From positions 1,178,001-1,242,000 of the forward strand of contig NZ_JAHLZY020000001.1 of NCBI RefSeq assembly GCF_018967865.2: 64,000 bases of DNA. The letters run 5' to 3'. The notes beneath the pieces are model-generated. The model was not told the origin of the DNA and did no database searches. It saw nothing but the letters and a program-made list of their open reading frames with translations. This stretch comes from Hymenobacter siberiensis (GTDB lineage: Bacteria; Bacteroidota; Bacteroidia; Cytophagales; Hymenobacteraceae). This document shows, piece by piece, positions 4,660 through 62,825 of the stretch; position 1 is the stretch's first letter, and every line of letters starts with the position of its first letter. Both the position numbers and the translations under genes were made by a program.

Positions 4660-5640
4660 TTAGCGGTTCACCAGTTTTAGGGCTCCCTCGCCGTAGCGGG
4701 CGCCCACCACCGGGTGGGCCGCCAGCAGAGCACGCAGCTGGTCCAAATCATCAGCGGTAAGCGCCACATCGGCCGCTGCGGCGTTCTCTTCGAGATATTT
4801 CGGCCGCTTGGTGCCCGGGATGGGGATGATGTGGCCATCCTGCGCCAGCAGCCACGCCAGCGCCAGCTGTGCCGTGCTGATGCCGCGCGCCTCGGCCAGC
4901 TGCCGCAGCCCGCCCACCAGCGGCGCGTTGGCATCGCCCACCTCGGCCCCGAAGCGGGGCATGCTGCGGCGCAGGTCCTGGTCGGCCAGCTGGGGGCCCA
5001 CGGCGGTGAGCAGCCCGCGTCCGAGCGGCGAAAACGGGACCAGGCTAATGCCCAGTTCCTGGCACGCCGGCAGAATATCCGCCTCCACATCGCGGGTAAA
5101 CATCGAATACTCTGACTGCAGCGCCGCGATGGGGTGCGTAGCTGCCGCCCGCCGCAACGAAGCCGCCGAAGCCTCCGACAGGCCCAGAAACCGCACTTTT
5201 CCGGCTTGTACCAGGGCGGCCATCGCGCCCACCATTTCCTCTACCGGTACGGCCGGGTCGATGCGGTGGGCATAGTACAGGTCGATGGTGTCGATGCCGA
5301 GGCGTTGGAGGCTGGCGTCGCAGGCGGCCGCTATGCGTTCGGGACGCACATCCACGGCCGAGCCGCCCGCCCCGTCGGCTACAAAGCCAAACTTGGTGGC
5401 CAGGAAAACGCGGTTCCGGTTGGGCACCAGCACCTGTCGCAGCAGCGTCTCGTTGGCCCCCAAGCCGTAGATGTCGGCCGTGTCCCAGAGTGTTACGTCC
5501 AGCTCCAGCGCCCGGTGCAGCGTAGCCACGGCCTCGCGCTCGTCGCTGGGGCCATAGGCATAGTCCGAGGCCATCGACATGCAGCCCAGGCCCAGGGCTG
5601 AAACGTGTTGGCCGGTGCGGCCCAGTTCGCGGGTTTTCAT
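4660..5640 (-). CDS. Aldo/keto reductase
   Basis: A 326-residue NADPH-dependent oxidoreductase with the TIM-barrel aldo/keto reductase signature. The catalytic tetrad is readable as Asp53, Tyr58 (DTADIYG), Lys83 (ATKFG) and His125 (YYAHRID). The cofactor end carries IPIPGTKRPKYLEEN. The opening KTRELGRTGQHVSALGLGCMS is typical of the YakC/AKR13-like branch. The physiological substrate is unknown; relatives reduce a variety of aldehydes. A small cupin gene lies 16 bp upstream on the same strand, so the two are probably co-transcribed. Confidence 0.95.
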   Translation of the reverse strand: MKTRELGRTGQHVSALGLGCMSMASDYAYGPSDEREAVATLHRALELDVTLWDTADIYGLGANETLLRQVLVPNRNRVFLATKFGFVADGAGGSAVDVRPERIAAACDASLQRLGIDTIDLYYAHRIDPAVPVEEMVGAMAALVQAGKVRFLGLSEASAASLRRAAATHPIAALQSEYSMFTRDVEADILPACQELGISLVPFSPLGRGLLTAVGPQLADQDLRRSMPRFGAEVGDANAPLVGGLRQLAEARGISTAQLALAWLLAQDGHIIPIPGTKRPKYLEENAAAADVALTADDLDQLRALLAAHPVVGARYGEGALKLVNR

Positions 5641-47111: not shown

Positions 47112-48375
47112 GGGTACAACCCAAATTGTCGCTATTCCTGCCTGAGTGGGTTGCAGGGTTCAATGCGTTGTCGTACCAAGTGCCACCGATTACTCATCGC
47201 GCAAACGCGCAGGGTCAAGACCCGCTGTGCGCCGTTGTTGCTCCAGCGTTGCCCCGCCCGCTTTAAGCGCCGTTGCATCACCGTGCGGTGAGCGGATTCG
47301 ATGGCCCCCGAGCCAATCAACAACCCGCGTTCGCGGTACGATTTATAATCCATCCGGTCGCGGTTTGATTGCAGGTACGCACCGACGGAATGGCGCAAGG
47401 CAGGGGCTATTTTCAACTGCTGGAGGTTTGTCAATACTTCGTATAACTTACTGTCTAATATTAATTTGCGTTGTATATCAAACCAGTCGGCAGCCGCTTG
47501 TCCGGTCCCAAGACCCGCCTTTCCGGCTTGGCCAATGTGTTCCATGGCGTGGTAGAGGTCCAAAATCAGCGTTGCCTGCGGACACGTTTTTTCCATCAGC
47601 TGACGCAGCCACAGCGCCCCGTCGCTGATAAAAACCAGGTCGCGCGCCCGGCCGTTGTAGGGGGCGATTTGCGTCGCAAATTTGACCCCAAACGCCGCCG
47701 CATTCCCTCGATGGCCCACAAAAACGGATGAGGCAATGTGCCCGCCCCGCTCCTCTACGGCGCTCGTTTGCAGGGCTGTAGCCGCAAAAATACGGCCCAG
47801 TTTCACTTCTTTGTAGCCTTCGTCAGTCAGCAGCATGGCCCCGTCCGCCTGCGCGTAGACGACCCCCACGGCGGCGGCATCGGCGGCGGCCAGGTCTATA
47901 TCGTCGGCGATGGCCCCGCCGTAAAAGTGCGTCAGGCGGTCAATTTGGCTGGCCCCCACGGATAGGCCCAGCAACATTTCGACCAACGCGGCGGCCTGTT
48001 GATAGACCTCGAATTGCCCCAAAAAAACCAGTTTCTCCTGTAGGTAGGGGCTGATGCCAAACCCGTTCGGATGATGGCTAAATGCCTGATTGTTCGCTAT
48101 GTGAATCTGACCAAAGCGGGTCGTCATCTTTTTTTTTTCGGCGGTCAGCCGGCACAACGCCGACGTTGCGCTCCAACACTTGACGGCCTAAATCCATCCA
48201 GATGGCTTCAAAGGATTTCTCGTAACCGTAAAACGTTGGCTGGGTCGCAAGCGCCTGCAAATCGTCGTATTTTTGCTCGGCCAATGCCAGATATTCAGCC
48301 TTGCTCATGGCGGTGGTAGGTGCTGTTGTCATGACACAAGTTAATCCGAATTTAGCGACAATTTGGGTTGCACCC
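47112..48375 (-). mobile_element. ISKra4-family insertion sequence, copy 2
   Basis: Both ends are present: GGGTACAACCCAAATTGTC at the left and the complement of GGGTGCAACCCAAATTGTC at the right, spanning 1264 bp. There is no target duplication, and different relics (IS5 and GT61) lie on the two sides, so a deletion has occurred next to it. It is in the same orientation as copy 1, about 15 kb away. Confidence 0.9.
47132..48332 (-). CDS. ISKra4 transposase, copy 2 (two frames joined at an A10 run)
   Basis: OrfA begins at ATG 48332 (MTTAPTTAMSKAEY; ATG 48307 is an alternative) and continues past a run of ten A near 48129-48138 to a stop at 48078. OrfB overlaps it and runs to 47132. It contains the DDE-like motifs ADGAMLL, ISDGALWLRQ and GSGAIESAHR, plus LDLYHAMEHI. 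The A10 run is a classic site for transcriptional slippage or ribosomal frameshifting, which would fuse OrfA and OrfB into about 410 residues. OrfB also has an ATG just after the A-run, so separate initiation is possible. It appears undamaged apart from the frame change. Confidence 0.85.
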
Positions 48376-48879
48376 CACCGCACCTATTTTTGCAAGCCAC
48401 TGACCCATACACCACACTACTACCGCCGCATTCTGGAGATGGTGCGGCCTGAAGACCGGATTGGTACTGGCTCATATAACCGGCGGCTATTTATCACCCA
48501 CAGCCCCAAGCGGCTGCGCTTTATCGAGAATAATGCGGAAATAGCGGGTATTTGCCAGAAGATGGGCTTCGAAGTGTTGGACTTTGATGAATTAACTTTG
48601 CCGGAGCAAATTCAGGCTGTGGGACAGGCCCGCTACGTGGTGGGTATTCATGGGGCGGGCTTGGCTAACATCATTTTCAGGGGTGGCCGTCCCTTGGGGC
48701 TACTGGAGATTTATCCGCCCGCGACATATTTCCCCTTTCACAATATAATGTTGGCCAATCAGTTGGGTTATCATTGCGATGGCCTGATTGGTCTGCCAGG
48801 CTCTCAGCAATTTTCGGGCGGTTTCCGCGTAGACCCGACCGGGTTCCGCCAGCGCCTAGCAGCGCTGCTGCAACACTAA
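48376..48879 (+). pseudogene. GT61 glycosyltransferase, C-terminal remnant
   Basis: Directly after the IS the frame continues as HRTYFCKPLTHTPHYYRRIL, then RLFITHSPKRLRFIENNAEI and YVVGIHGAGLANIIFRGGRP, ending at 48879. It aligns without gaps to the last 165 or so residues of the GT61 at 45719. The N-terminal 220 residues are absent and are not found on the other side of the IS. It is probably nonfunctional. Confidence 0.88.
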
Positions 48880-57460: not shown

Positions 57461-58417
57461 ATGGACATCCCTCCCCCCATTTTTTCCATAGTAAGTCCGG
57501 TATATAGGACAGATACCATGATACCGGAGTTGGTAGCTCGCATTATTCGTAGTGTAACACCTCTCACAACTAATTTTGAGATTATATTAGTTGATGACCG
57601 TAGTCCGGATAAATCATGGGAGGAAATACAAACACAAGTGCATCTTGACTCTCGCGTGCGAGGGTTACGGCTCAGTCGCAACTTTGGGCAGCACCGCGCT
57701 ATTACAGCCGGCCTTGATTATAGCCAGGGCGAGTGGATAATAGTAATGGACTGCGACCTGCAGGACCGGCCCGAAGAGATACCAGCACTGCTCGCCAAAG
57801 CGCAGGAGGGATTCGATATAGTGCTGGCGCGCCGATTTGAAAGGCAGGATGGGGCGTTCAAAAAGCTTTTTTCTTATCTGTTTTACAACATACTAAGCTA
57901 TTTGACTGGTACACCGCAGGATAGCGCCATCGCCAATTTCGGTATTTATAATCGAAAAGTGATTAATGCCATTTGTGAATTGCGCGAAAGTACGCGTTAT
58001 TTCCCTGCTATGGCCCGGTGGGTAGGCTTTCGTGTTTCTACCCTCGATGTTGAGCATGCTGAGCGGCCTGAAGGAACAAGCAGCTATAATATCAAGCGGT
58101 TAGTTAATTTGGCATTGGATATTATACTGGCTTATTCTGATAAGCCTTTGCGGCTTACAGTGAAATTTGGCCTGCTGATATCGGCCACCTCATTCATTGG
58201 CACTATCTATATGCTATGGCAGGCTATTGAAGGCAAAATTCAGGTGCTTGGTTACGCTAGCCTTATAGTGTCTATTTGGTTTTTTTCAGGGCTAATAATC
58301 TTGATTATGGGAATTATTGGCCTGTATTTGGGTAAAACGTTTGAAGGAGTCAAAAACCGACCTATTTATGTGGTCGACGATTTCATCGGAAATGCTATAG
58401 CGCAACAAGAAGTATGA
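57461..58417 (+). CDS. GtrB/DPM1-like membrane glycosyltransferase (GT2)
   Basis: A 318-residue GT2 protein with two C-terminal transmembrane helices. Motifs: PIFSIVSPVYRTDTMIPELV, IILVDDRSPDKSWE, RNFGQHRAITAGLDYSQGEW and VMDCDLQDRPEEIP, where DCDLQD holds the metal-binding acids. KTFEGVKNRPIYVVDD closes the protein. It should charge undecaprenyl phosphate with a sugar for a GT-C enzyme. It overlaps the following acyltransferase gene by 4 bp (ATGA). Confidence 0.92.
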   Translation: MDIPPPIFSIVSPVYRTDTMIPELVARIIRSVTPLTTNFEIILVDDRSPDKSWEEIQTQVHLDSRVRGLRLSRNFGQHRAITAGLDYSQGEWIIVMDCDLQDRPEEIPALLAKAQEGFDIVLARRFERQDGAFKKLFSYLFYNILSYLTGTPQDSAIANFGIYNRKVINAICELRESTRYFPAMARWVGFRVSTLDVEHAERPEGTSSYNIKRLVNLALDIILAYSDKPLRLTVKFGLLISATSFIGTIYMLWQAIEGKIQVLGYASLIVSIWFFSGLIILIMGIIGLYLGKTFEGVKNRPIYVVDDFIGNAIAQQEV

Positions 58418-59136
58418 GTTCTGTTTTAGAGTTATTACCTTGGGATACGGAATTCCTGGGATATAAGGTGGGGCGGCTACAACCTACCGATTCAACATTA
58501 GTGACAGTAAACGAGCTGATTGGGGAAGCTCGCTTACAAGGCTTCCATCTCTTGTATTGGGCAGCAGACCCAACAGATGTCACTGCTGCTCATACTGCCC
58601 TTGCTATTGGAGCATATCTGGCTGACCAAAAGGTTACCTATGCTATGCCTGTCAAGGCGGGCGTAACACAGCAGTTAGGTCAAGGTATTGAAGTGGCCGT
58701 TGAGCTTTCTGCGCAGCTTGTATCGCTGGCTTTGCAGAGTGGTCACCACTCACGTTATCAAAATGACGCTAGATTTGCTCCCGATGTGTTTTTGAGGCTC
58801 TACACTCGCTGGATTGAAAACTCTGTTAATGGCAAGCTTGCACGTGAAGTATTGGTCTACCGAGCAGACCGGTCCGGCGAAGAACTGGGCATGATAACAT
58901 TAAACGTTAAGAATACTCGAGCTGATATTGGGCTTTTGGCTGTGGATGAGCGGACAAGAGGGCAAGAGATAGGCACTCGGCTAATAGACGCGGCTCATCA
59001 GCGTTCACATGCTTGGGGAGTTGAGGTTTTGCAGGTTGTAACTCAGGTTACCAATTCAGGGGCCTGTCGTTTCTACGAGCGCTGTGGCTTTCGCACCGAC
59101 TCTATAGTTCATATTTACCATATCTGGCTCCCATAG
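58414..59136 (+). CDS. GNAT-family acyltransferase, dTDP-fucosamine acetyltransferase-like
   Basis: 240 residues, translationally coupled by ATGA to the preceding GT2 gene. The N-terminal part has LLPWDTEFLGYKVGRLQ, the W-DT-F motif of WecD (RffC). The C-terminal GNAT core shows IGLLAVDERTRGQEIGTRL with the acetyl-CoA loop, then QVTNSGACRFYERCGFRTDS. With the WecE-like transaminase 2.5 kb downstream it likely acetylates dTDP-4-amino-4,6-dideoxygalactose to the Fuc4NAc precursor. The two are now separated by an IS stack. Confidence 0.82.
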   Translation: MSSVLELLPWDTEFLGYKVGRLQPTDSTLVTVNELIGEARLQGFHLLYWAADPTDVTAAHTALAIGAYLADQKVTYAMPVKAGVTQQLGQGIEVAVELSAQLVSLALQSGHHSRYQNDARFAPDVFLRLYTRWIENSVNGKLAREVLVYRADRSGEELGMITLNVKNTRADIGLLAVDERTRGQEIGTRLIDAAHQRSHAWGVEVLQVVTQVTNSGACRFYERCGFRTDSIVHIYHIWLP

Positions 59137-59255
59137 CAGTACTTTTTGAAAAAGCTTTTAAGTTACGAGTGAGGCCATATGCCGCCTGCGCATAATAGAC
59201 TGTTGTAGTACTCCCCAAAAGCTGGACAGGTTAAGCGGGCTAGCTTAGCTCGATT

Positions 59256-59540
59256 ATGACCCCAAAACGCACCCGCCGTCGCTATACGGCCGAGTTCAAA
59301 GCGGAGGTGGCGCTAGCCGCCCTCACCGAGCGCCAGCCATTGGCCGAGCTGGCCGCTCACTACCAATTGGCTACCGCTCAAATCACCCGTTGGAAGCTGC
59401 AACTGCGTGAGCAGGCCACCCAGGTTTTCACCGAAGCGCCTGCGGCCGGCATGCCCTTACCCGACGTCGAGCCCCTCTACGCGGCCATCGGTCGGTTGCA
59501 AATGGAAAACGCGCTGCTAAAAAAAACGCTACCCCGATGA
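59256..59540 (+). CDS. IS3-family transposase OrfA
   Basis: 94 residues beginning MTPKRTRRRYTAEFKAEVAL, a helix-turn-helix protein with LAELAAHYQLATAQITRWKL and a leucine-zipper-like end (LQMENALLKKTL). It binds the IS ends. It overlaps OrfB by 4 bp (ATGA), so OrfB can be reached by coupling or by frameshift. Confidence 0.9.
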   Translation: MTPKRTRRRYTAEFKAEVALAALTERQPLAELAAHYQLATAQITRWKLQLREQATQVFTEAPAAGMPLPDVEPLYAAIGRLQMENALLKKTLPR

Positions 59541-60421
59541 GCACGGCCCAACAACGGGTCCTGGTTCAGGCCTCGGACCCGGCCGGTAGCTCGGTCGCCG
59601 CTCGCTGCCAGGCCCTAGGCCTGGCCCGCAGCAGCTTCTACTACCAGCCCTGCGGAGAAAGTGCTTACAACCTGGAGCTCATGCGCCTGCTCGATGAGGA
59701 GTTTACCGACCACAACTTCAAAGGAGTGCTCGGCCTGCGCGACCACCTGCGCCTGGCCGGCCACGCCGTCAATGCCAAGCGCGTGCGCCGCCTCGTGCGC
59801 CTGATGGGCCACGAGCCGATTTATCCCAAACCGCGCTTGTCCATTCCTGGTCAAGGCGTTACGCCCTACCCGTACCTACTGCGGGACCGCCCGGCCACCG
59901 CCCCGAAGGAGGTATGGAGTACCGACATCACGTACGTGCCCATGGCCAAGGGCTTTCTCTATCTGGCCGCCGTGCTCGACTGGCACTCGCGCTACGTGCT
60001 CAGCTGGCAGCTCTCCAACACGCTCGACGTGGGCTTTTGCCTGCAAGCCCTGGGTGATGCGTTGCGCCATGCTCCGGCTCCCTACATCTTCAACTCCGAC
60101 CAGGGCAGCCAGTTCACCAGCCTCGCCTACGAACAAGCTTTGCTGGACGCCGGCTGCCGCATCAGCCGCGACGGCCGCGGCCGCGCCACCGACAATGCCT
60201 TCATCGAACGCCTCTGGCGCACGGTCAAATGGGAACATATCTATCTTATCCCGGCCGATGACGGCCAGCACCTGCACCAGCAATTAACCGCGTACTTTGC
60301 CTACTACAATCATCGCCGACCCCATCAAAGTCTCGGGGGCCAAACGCCCGCCCACGTCTACCAAACCAACACAACATTCAATCATAACAATATTACTACT
60401 CTACCCTACCATTTTAGTTAA
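59537..60421 (+). CDS. IS3-family transposase OrfB with altered C-terminus
   Basis: 294 residues. The HTH_21-type N-terminal part (SSFYYQPCGESAYNLELMRL) precedes an rve integrase core: Asp in EVWSTDITYVPMAKGFLYL, Asp in FNSDQGSQFTSLAYE and Glu in DNAFIERLWRTVKWEHIYL. HHRRPHQSLGGQTPAHVY is the usual tail. The original stop was TAA right after NHNNIT. The nested IS4 replaces it and adds TLPYHFS. Catalytic residues are intact. Confidence 0.9.
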   Translation: MSTAQQRVLVQASDPAGSSVAARCQALGLARSSFYYQPCGESAYNLELMRLLDEEFTDHNFKGVLGLRDHLRLAGHAVNAKRVRRLVRLMGHEPIYPKPRLSIPGQGVTPYPYLLRDRPATAPKEVWSTDITYVPMAKGFLYLAAVLDWHSRYVLSWQLSNTLDVGFCLQALGDALRHAPAPYIFNSDQGSQFTSLAYEQALLDAGCRISRDGRGRATDNAFIERLWRTVKWEHIYLIPADDGQHLHQQLTAYFAYYNHRRPHQSLGGQTPAHVYQTNTTFNHNNITTLPYHFS

Positions 60422-61595
60422 TTGATAAAGAGTTAGTTGGCAAATAATCCATCGAAACACGGCGTTCATGTTAGCAATGAAGGCCGGGTCAGTGCTGCGG
60501 CCGGGCCGCGTGTATTGCCGCAGAGCGTTGAGGCCGTGGCGGCTGAAACTGGCGCGTTTGTAGCCGTTGTTTTTGGTTTTGATGGGTTGCACCTTTTCGT
60601 GGAGCCAGGTGCCCACGCTGACACACAGCGCGTAGGCCAGGCTCACGAGGCCAACGAGTTTTTTGAGCTTGCCGCGGCACTGCAAATGCGTCCCGCGCAA
60701 GGCAAAGCCGCGCCCTTTCAGGTTCTGAAAACAGGCTTCGATGGTCCAGCGCTTGCGGTAGAACTGGCCCAAAAAAGCGACGTTGGCCGTGCCGAAAAGG
60801 AACAGGTACTCGCCCCCGGTCAGGGCCGTGACCTGCGCCCCGCCCCAGACCCCGTCGACCTGGCACGCGGCCAGTTGGCGGCACTGGCCCGGGTGCAGGC
60901 CCCAGTCGGCCACGGCGTGACGGCGGCCGTGGCGGTCGGTGAGCAAGTGGTGCTTGGGCAGGCGCATGACGAAGAAAATACCCTTGTCTTTGAGGTACTT
61001 GAACCACGCATGGCCCACAAATTCCCGGTCGCCCACCACCAACCCCACCCGGTCGGGGCCCAGTACCCGGAGGCAAAAATCCAGCAGCGCGGCGCGGTCA
61101 GCCGCATTGGAATTACCGCTGCGGTTGTCGAGTAATTCCCAGTACAGCGGCCAGTGGCAGTCGCCGCGGCCCACCGTGACGAGCAGAATGTTTACCTGGC
61201 ACTTGCCGAAGTCCCACTCCGTGCGGTCCAGGCACAGGCGCAGCTTGCCCGTGCCCGGCAGCAGGCCCACCAGCAGCACAGCCAGGGCCAGGTAATCCAG
61301 GTCGACCTCGCGAAAAAAGTCCTGGATGCGCGTCTCGTTCGAGGCCAGTTTTGCGCCGTCGTTGAGATGCTGCGCCACTTCGCAAAATTGTACGTTTCGA
61401 CTTTTGAAGAGACCCAGCACGAAGCGGGCAATGAACTTCTTGCGGGCCAGGTTCCGCACCAGCGGGGCCGAATGCAAAAGGGTCGTAATTTTGGCAACGA
61501 GGCAATGCTTCACGGGAAGGGGTGCTTTTGGCAGTTGAGGAACTACAAAGGTCGAACCTTCCCGTTTTTATGCCCGATTTTTAGTAGGGTAGAGT
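60398..61595 (-). mobile_element. IS4-family insertion sequence nested in the IS3 element
   Basis: Ends ACTCTACCCTACC and complement of ACTCTACCCTACT define 1198 bp, flanked by the perfect 11-bp target duplication ACAATATTACT (60387-60397 and 61596-61606). The insertion is at the stop codon of IS3 orfB. Confidence 0.95.
60401..61513 (-). CDS. IS4-family transposase
   Basis: 370 residues from a GTG start at 61513. The DDE core has Asp in LRLCLDRTEWDFG, Asp in LVVGDREFVGHAW and Glu in FYRKRWTIEACFQNLKGRGF, the last fitting the YREK signature of IS4. The gene runs almost to the element's left end and is apparently intact. It is the likely source of transposase for the 162-bp MITE at 30353. Confidence 0.93.
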   Translation of the reverse strand: MKHCLVAKITTLLHSAPLVRNLARKKFIARFVLGLFKSRNVQFCEVAQHLNDGAKLASNETRIQDFFREVDLDYLALAVLLVGLLPGTGKLRLCLDRTEWDFGKCQVNILLVTVGRGDCHWPLYWELLDNRSGNSNAADRAALLDFCLRVLGPDRVGLVVGDREFVGHAWFKYLKDKGIFFVMRLPKHHLLTDRHGRRHAVADWGLHPGQCRQLAACQVDGVWGGAQVTALTGGEYLFLFGTANVAFLGQFYRKRWTIEACFQNLKGRGFALRGTHLQCRGKLKKLVGLVSLAYALCVSVGTWLHEKVQPIKTKNNGYKRASFSRHGLNALRQYTRPGRSTDPAFIANMNAVFRWIICQLTLYQLTKMVG

Positions 61596-61633
61596 ACAAT
61601 ATTACTTAACAAGCCCCGCTAAAGTGTCCAGTT

Positions 61634-61664
61634 TTTGGGGAGTAGTACAATTCGACTATCTTTG
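61634..61664 (+). promoter_or_regulatory. Hybrid promoter of wecE: IS3-end -33 box plus native -7 box
   Basis: TTTG at 61634-61637, inside the IS3 right inverted repeat, is followed after 19 nt by TATCTTTG at 61657-61664, outside the IS. Both boxes and the spacing fit the Bacteroidota consensus. The ATG of wecE is 19 nt downstream at 61683. Confidence 0.7.
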
Positions 61665-61682
61665 TGTCTCAGCCCTTAATCT

Positions 61683-62825
61683 ATGGATTCTAGTATTCCC
61701 TTTAACAAACCTTACCTCTCAGGCAACGAAACCCGTTATATCGAAGAGGCTGTGCTATCCGGCAAAATTTCTGGTGATGGCATGTTTACCAAGCGGTGCC
61801 ACCAGTTTTTTGAGCAGCAGCTGGGTTTTAAAAAAGTTCTGCTGACTACATCCTGTACTGATGCTCTGGAAATGGCAGCTCTGCTGCTCGACATCAAACC
61901 CGGGGATGAGGTGATTATGCCATCTTACACGTTTGTGTCGACTTCCAATGCTTTTGTATTGCGGGGGGCACACATCGTCTTTGCCGATAGTACCGCCGAA
62001 AATCCTAATCTGGACCCTGCCCGATTAGAATCACTCATTACTGCTCGTACGCGCGCTATTGTACCCGTTCATTATGCTGGCATAGCATGTGATATGGACC
62101 CCATAATGGAGATTGCTAATCGGCATAATCTGTTTGTGGTAGAAGATGCCGCCCAGGCGATTGACAGCTACTATAAGGGAAAGGCTTTGGGCACGATTGG
62201 CCATTTAGCTGCTTTTTCGTTTCATGAAACCAAAAATATCATTTCGGGCGAGGGAGGAATGCTGGCCATTAATGACGAGCGGTTCGCTGCCCGTGCCGAA
62301 ATAATTAGAGAAAAAGGGACAAACCGGTCATCTTTTTTTCGTGGTGAAGTAGACAAATACGGATGGGTTGACCATGGCTCGTCGTTTTTGCCTTCGGATA
62401 TAATCGCAGCATTCCTGTGGGCGCAGCTTGAGAATTTGCGCGATATTCAGACTAAACGCGTAGCAATCTGGGAGCGCTACTATCGTGCACTGGAGCCCTT
62501 GGTAGCTATTGGGGTAGAAATGCCCTATGTACCGGATTTCGCAACCAAAAACGGGCATATGTTCTACTTGGTGTGCCGTAGCTTAGCGGAGCGTACCGCG
62601 CTAATCGAATACATGAAATCACAGAATATTAATCCGGTGTTTCATTATTTGTCGCTCCATACCAGCCCATTCTATTTCGAAAATCATGATGGCCGGGTGC
62701 TGCCCTGGGCAGACCATTATACCGACTGCCTGATTCGCCTGCCGCTTTACTATGAGTTGAGCACCGCGCAGCAAACCCGGATTATGGATGCCATTTTATC
62801 GTTCTATAAGCAGACGGGCTCATAA
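61683..62825 (+). CDS. wecE: dTDP-4-amino-4,6-dideoxygalactose transaminase
   Basis: A 380-residue PLP aminotransferase of the DegT/DnrJ/EryC1 family. IPFNKPYLSGNETRYIEEAV and SGDGMFTKRCHQFFEQQLG are typical of WecE (RffA). The PLP lysine is Lys184 in FSFHETKNIISGEGG, in contrast to YPGKN in the FdtB-type enzymes. It aminates C4 of dTDP-4-keto-6-deoxyglucose to give dTDP-Fuc4N, the substrate of the WecD-like enzyme upstream. The original link between the two genes is interrupted by the IS3/IS4 stack. Confidence 0.93.
   Translation: MDSSIPFNKPYLSGNETRYIEEAVLSGKISGDGMFTKRCHQFFEQQLGFKKVLLTTSCTDALEMAALLLDIKPGDEVIMPSYTFVSTSNAFVLRGAHIVFADSTAENPNLDPARLESLITARTRAIVPVHYAGIACDMDPIMEIANRHNLFVVEDAAQAIDSYYKGKALGTIGHLAAFSFHETKNIISGEGGMLAINDERFAARAEIIREKGTNRSSFFRGEVDKYGWVDHGSSFLPSDIIAAFLWAQLENLRDIQTKRVAIWERYYRALEPLVAIGVEMPYVPDFATKNGHMFYLVCRSLAERTALIEYMKSQNINPVFHYLSLHTSPFYFENHDGRVLPWADHYTDCLIRLPLYYELSTAQQTRIMDAILSFYKQTGS

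Follow-up and report, generated by a model that had tools for sequence, protein, structure and literature searches.

An insertion sequence end completes a promoter-like sequence upstream of wecE in Hymenobacter siberiensis, probably at an older promoter core

In a 64,000-nucleotide stretch of Hymenobacter siberiensis DNA (hereafter the window), the gene for a WecE-like aminotransferase is preceded by the end of an insertion sequence (IS) which carries a TTTG at the spacing of a Bacteroidota −33 element. A sequence-only reading of the window took this arrangement for a new promoter formed by the insertion. The −7 box in question lies in host DNA, however, and boxes of the same kind stand before wecE in many relatives that lack the IS, such that a newly made promoter is a less likely reading than the survival of an older −7 core. 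On balance, therefore, the comparison favours a wecE promoter that is older than the IS and of which the IS replaced the upstream half.

The order of events would be as follows. A promoter of the Bacteroidota housekeeping type would already have served wecE, with its working core, the −7 box TATCTTTG, in the stretch that separates wecE from an upstream GNAT acetyltransferase gene. An IS3-family element would then have inserted 7 nt upstream of TATCTTTG, displacing the native upstream half, and an IS4-family element would later have entered the IS3-family element. By chance, the IS3 inverted repeat holds a TTTG 19 nt from the box, such that the junction now reads as a full consensus promoter, with the promoter itself most likely retained and perhaps modestly strengthened.

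The junction and the nested insertion sequences

Direct reading of the sequence places TTTG at 61634–61637 on the forward strand, inside the IS3 right inverted repeat, followed by a 19-nt spacer (61638–61656) and then by TATCTTTG at 61657–61664, also on the forward strand. A further 18 nt separate the box from the wecE ATG (61683–61685). The right end of the IS3-family element (...GTGTCCAGTTTTTGGGGAGTAGTACA) terminates at 61649, 33 nt 5' of the ATG, and TATCTTTG is wholly within the host flank, with 7 nt between it and the IS. The box fits TANNTTTG, the −7 box near the gene start, and also TAHHTTTG. In other words, the IS end carries an outward-facing upstream element, and the flank a correctly spaced downstream element 19 nt on, as in a hybrid promoter. 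In this regard the N19 spacing given by the sequence-only reading is exact, and a model of the empty site, in which the two flanks are joined to leave a GNAT–wecE spacer of 100 nt, has no TTTG at N15–25, in agreement with its claim that the IS end supplies this element. Its count of 19 nt from box to ATG corresponds to 18 intervening bases. Likewise, the transcription start that it expected near 61671 would move to 61669–61670 with a box-to-start spacing of 4–5 nt, the value used for Flavobacterium johnsoniae.

The IS3-family element and the IS4-family element nested within it together span 2446 bp (59204–61649, forward strand), as judged from inverted repeats, OrfA and OrfB, and other copies in the genome. 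The IS3 inverted repeats, TGTAGTACTCCCCAAAAGCTGGACAG and TGTACTACTCCCCAAAAACTGGACAC, begin with TG and end with CA as in the IS3 family; OrfA (59256–59540, a helix-turn-helix protein with domain HTH_Tnp_1) and OrfB (59537–60421, with the rve integrase core) overlap, and the family profile NF033516 scores 228.8 bits against a cut-off of 160. The earlier assignment to IS3 is thus right for the element at 59204–61649 but needs one correction, since this is a nested pair that contains a complete IS4-family element (60398–61595, minus strand), identified from NF033591, its ends and its target duplications. The transposase frame of the latter (60401–61513, minus strand) scores 154.1 bits against the NF033591 cut-off of 152, the ends are ACTCTACCCTAC, and an 11-bp target duplication, ACAATATTACT, stands at 60387–60397 and 61596–61606. 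The IS4-family element entered at the OrfB stop codon of the IS3-family element, so that OrfB is 7 residues longer than in another copy.

Target duplications of the IS3 family are short, about 3 bp. None is present at the wecE copy (left TGT, right ATT), and, by eye, a 3-bp duplication stands at two of the six two-ended IS3 copies compared in this genome (CAA at one, ACC at the other). Without a target duplication, part of the flank may be missing. Two other copies in the same genome share 99% identity with the wecE copy, and its match to a copy in a second genome of the species rounds to 100%; from this near-identity the insertion at wecE is probably recent. An intact wecE therefore does not demonstrate that the gene is expressed or used.

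The TTTG-bearing repeat occurs in 61 stretches of public genomes, including metagenome-assembled genomes (MAGs) labelled Planctomycetota, Phycisphaerales and Verrucomicrobia, labels which can be wrong. With the same repeat in distant MAGs, a TTTG that evolved as part of an IS promoter is a less simple explanation than a site for the transposase. At the junction of an IS circle, no TANNTTTG is evident by eye at N18–21.

wecE and its neighbour

The wecE-like gene (61683–62825, forward strand) encodes an aminotransferase of 380 amino acids with the Pfam domain DegT_DnrJ_EryC1, which exceeds the curated WecE cut-offs of both PRK11706.1 (573.9 bits against 375) and TIGR02379.1 (536.1 against 434.85). 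The GNAT acetyltransferase upstream (58414–59136, forward strand) falls below the curated WecD cut-offs, with 98.8 bits against 219 for PRK10975.1 and 64.6 against 195.1 for another profile, and is for this reason termed WecD-like only, and not WecD. The claim that the insertion split wecE from an operon mate is borne out insofar as 11 of 49 IS-free loci have a GNAT homologue that terminates no more than 100 nt before wecE; the IS pair thus sits between probable former operon mates.

wecE upstream DNA in related genomes

A protein match to wecE is present in 96 of 99 genomes, many of these matches being distant paralogues. Upstream DNA was read at 50 wecE loci, the window included; three genomes of the same genus with good matches were left out. 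The IS end seen here is absent from all 49 other loci. Eighteen of the 50 (window included) carry TANCTTTG no more than 60 nt from the ATG, and, of these, only the window has a TTTG at N17–23, with none in the 17 IS-free loci. Among the 42 same-genus IS-free loci, a set from which the window and a locus whose contig ends inside the gene are excluded, 13 have TA[CT]CTTTG, 17 have TANCTTTG and 21 have TANNTTTG no more than 45 nt from the wecE start; none of the three is found within that distance at any of six loci from the same order. These counts do not represent independent cases, as the relatives share ancestry. As background, TA[CT]CTTTG lies within 45 nt of the start in 10 of 534 open reading frames in 0.8 Mb of this genome, and 400 permuted motifs gave a mean of 0.14 of the 42 loci; the best of them, with 14, is simply this box displaced by one base, and the runner-up has 4. 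The gap of exactly 18 nt between box and ATG seen in the window recurs in six relatives.

A box that lies in host DNA, and that recurs without TTTG in IS-free relatives, most likely reflects a promoter that wecE already possessed. We infer that the box works, that it drives wecE transcription and that it predates the IS in this lineage. Against this reading, the exact box is present in four of the 11 loci with a GNAT homologue ending within 100 nt upstream, and is missing from the four loci closest by protein identity, some of which have near variants. An IS-free allele of this lineage was not found. The same-species genome G099 lacks wecE, a statement that rests on a search with a best match of 34% and not on a comparison that scored 40 of 136 candidates.

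Several features of these loci stand apart from the argument. The lack of a close wecE in G099 indicates that the surface-sugar gene set (57461–62825) varies within the species. Two of the four closest loci have TATCTTGC and TATTTTGT upstream of wecE, which resemble the TAnnTTGY box reported for an alternative promoter class linked to lipopolysaccharide genes in Flavobacterium psychrophilum (PMC9723704). In four other loci only 8 nt lie between the end of the −7 box and the wecE ATG, a gap which would yield almost leaderless mRNAs.

Chance and read-through

A different account, possible if rather doubtful, is that the match is a coincidence without function, with wecE dependent on read-through that begins in the IS or further upstream, or not expressed at all. 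The chance level of the pattern lends this some weight. The window has two copies of the exact TTTG-N19-TANNTTTG, where 100 shuffles average 0.15 and one of them reached two; the copy not at wecE, with a TATTTTTG box, is at 48362–48392. By itself, TANNTTTG shows no clear excess in the window, with 41 occurrences where shuffles average 31.8 and 7 of 100 have at least 41. Across the genome, the looser TTTG-N18..20-TANNTTTG has 36 matches against 20 in the reversed control, so that about half are due to chance, and the stricter TAYCTTTG box with TTTG at N19 has 8 against 1. The match of TTTG and box therefore exceeds chance, but such a pattern is not in itself a promoter. Moreover, a terminator scan of 58400–61750 gave one site, below the shuffle mean of 4.0, with no clear hairpin that would block read-through, and the probably recent age of the IS3 copy means that an intact wecE is not proof of use. 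Against coincidence, the box recurs at the same place in the genus well above background, and read-through would have to cross 2.4 kb that include a transposase gene on the opposite strand.

No sigma-70-type promoter was found in a scan of 58400–61750. A whole promoter within the IS near wecE was likewise rejected: TAATTTTG at 61486, the only other forward-strand TANNTTTG from 58778 to 61656, has no TTTG at N19.

The weight of the −33 TTTG

The second alternative, which we consider unlikely, is a true hybrid, in which the host half is too weak by itself and the TTTG of the IS created or strongly raised wecE transcription after the operon was split. The consensus N19 spacing and the empty-site model without TTTG speak for it, as does the existence of known IS/host fusion promoters. 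It also draws support from the genus at large, since in 61 genomes TTTG lies at N18–21 of TAYCTTTG in 977 of 22,374 cases against 405 at N10–13 (reversed controls 213 and 238, respectively), a 2.4-fold enrichment over the spacing control which suggests that TTTG at this position may matter more than assumed.

Set against this, the box is kept without TTTG in the IS-free relatives, and only one of 78 IS ends in the genus makes the pattern. The element is also infrequent at boxes in this genome, where TTTG is at N18–21 of TAYCTTTG in 17 of 340 cases. Among 33 boxes near the starts of open reading frames in 864 kb of the genome, wecE excluded, not one has TTTG at N18–21, and four have TTG. The −33 TTTG is thus real but uncommon in the genus, even at likely real boxes. 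TTTG belongs to the Bacteroides fragilis promoter consensus as described in the review PMC9330008; in F. johnsoniae promoters it is far less apparent, and according to PMC7366714 a −33 element could not be identified there. Taken together, these comparisons suggest that the TTTG at wecE probably gives some help, while the promoter does not owe its existence to it.

The same IS ends elsewhere

Among 120 genomes of the genus there are 78 such IS ends, in 28 genomes, and the window holds the one end with TANNTTTG at N17–22 of the TTTG. In a set of 92 distinct flanks (window included; ends with less than 60 nt of flank dropped), boxes stand at N19 (the window), N20 (locus L085), N43 and N69. In a set of 65 usable ends, after two with short flanks had been dropped, one, again L085, has a box at promoter spacing. 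Without the window, the case for an excess of boxes at promoter distance from IS ends is unconvincing (2 of 92 with it). L085 (5032–5541) is from a Bacteroidetes MAG, and has a related IS3-family end 8 nt upstream of TACCTTTG, which is N20 from TTTG and is followed by a fluoride riboswitch (5444–5507, RF01734, 52.4 bits) and a crcB gene (5032–5415). It is likely to be a second promoter in which an IS end replaces the upstream half. The broader proposal, that Bacteroidota use the ends of this IS family as portable −33 elements, with insertions just upstream of −7 boxes tolerated or favoured, would fit L085 and the fact that two of the four boxes near the 92 ends are at N19–N20; a single extra case does not establish a trend, and we regard this proposal as highly improbable.

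Comparison with known systems

If the promoter at the junction is indeed active, it offers a natural test of the importance of the −33 TTTG in this branch of Bacteroidota, since one gene with a similar box can be compared in the presence and absence of TTTG. The junction also carries a caution, in that a full consensus promoter spanning an IS end and its flank is not necessarily the work of the IS, and IS-free relatives should be checked first. The literature searched contained no paper on Hymenobacter together with an insertion sequence and a promoter, or with wecE.

Fusion promoters between IS and host are already known, and one is listed for Bacteroides in a table of the review PMC9330008. 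As described there for the IS3-family elements IS911 and IS2, the upstream element comes from the right end of the IS and the downstream one from the flank, at the correct spacing, which is the arrangement at wecE. The IS911 −35 element, however, serves the transposition cycle through a junction promoter (PMC9330008), and the putative wecE promoter is, unlike those of IS911 and IS2, of the Bacteroidota −33/−7 type, with a box that recurs in relatives without the IS. ISBf1 (IS21-like) at cepA in B. fragilis, the case listed there among fusion promoters, is similar in that an IS end adjoins a gene in a Bacteroidota host, and differs in the IS family, in the gene and in its link to a phenotype (PMC9330008). 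Other Bacteroides IS elements, such as IS1186 at cfiA, also lie upstream of a gene in Bacteroidota; there, the IS carries a whole outward promoter, whereas at wecE the −7 box is host DNA. Finally, the wecE junction resembles the Bacteroidota housekeeping promoter, TTTG and TANNTTTG, in having both elements at consensus, 19 nt apart, and departs from a typical one in that its −33 half lies within a mobile element.
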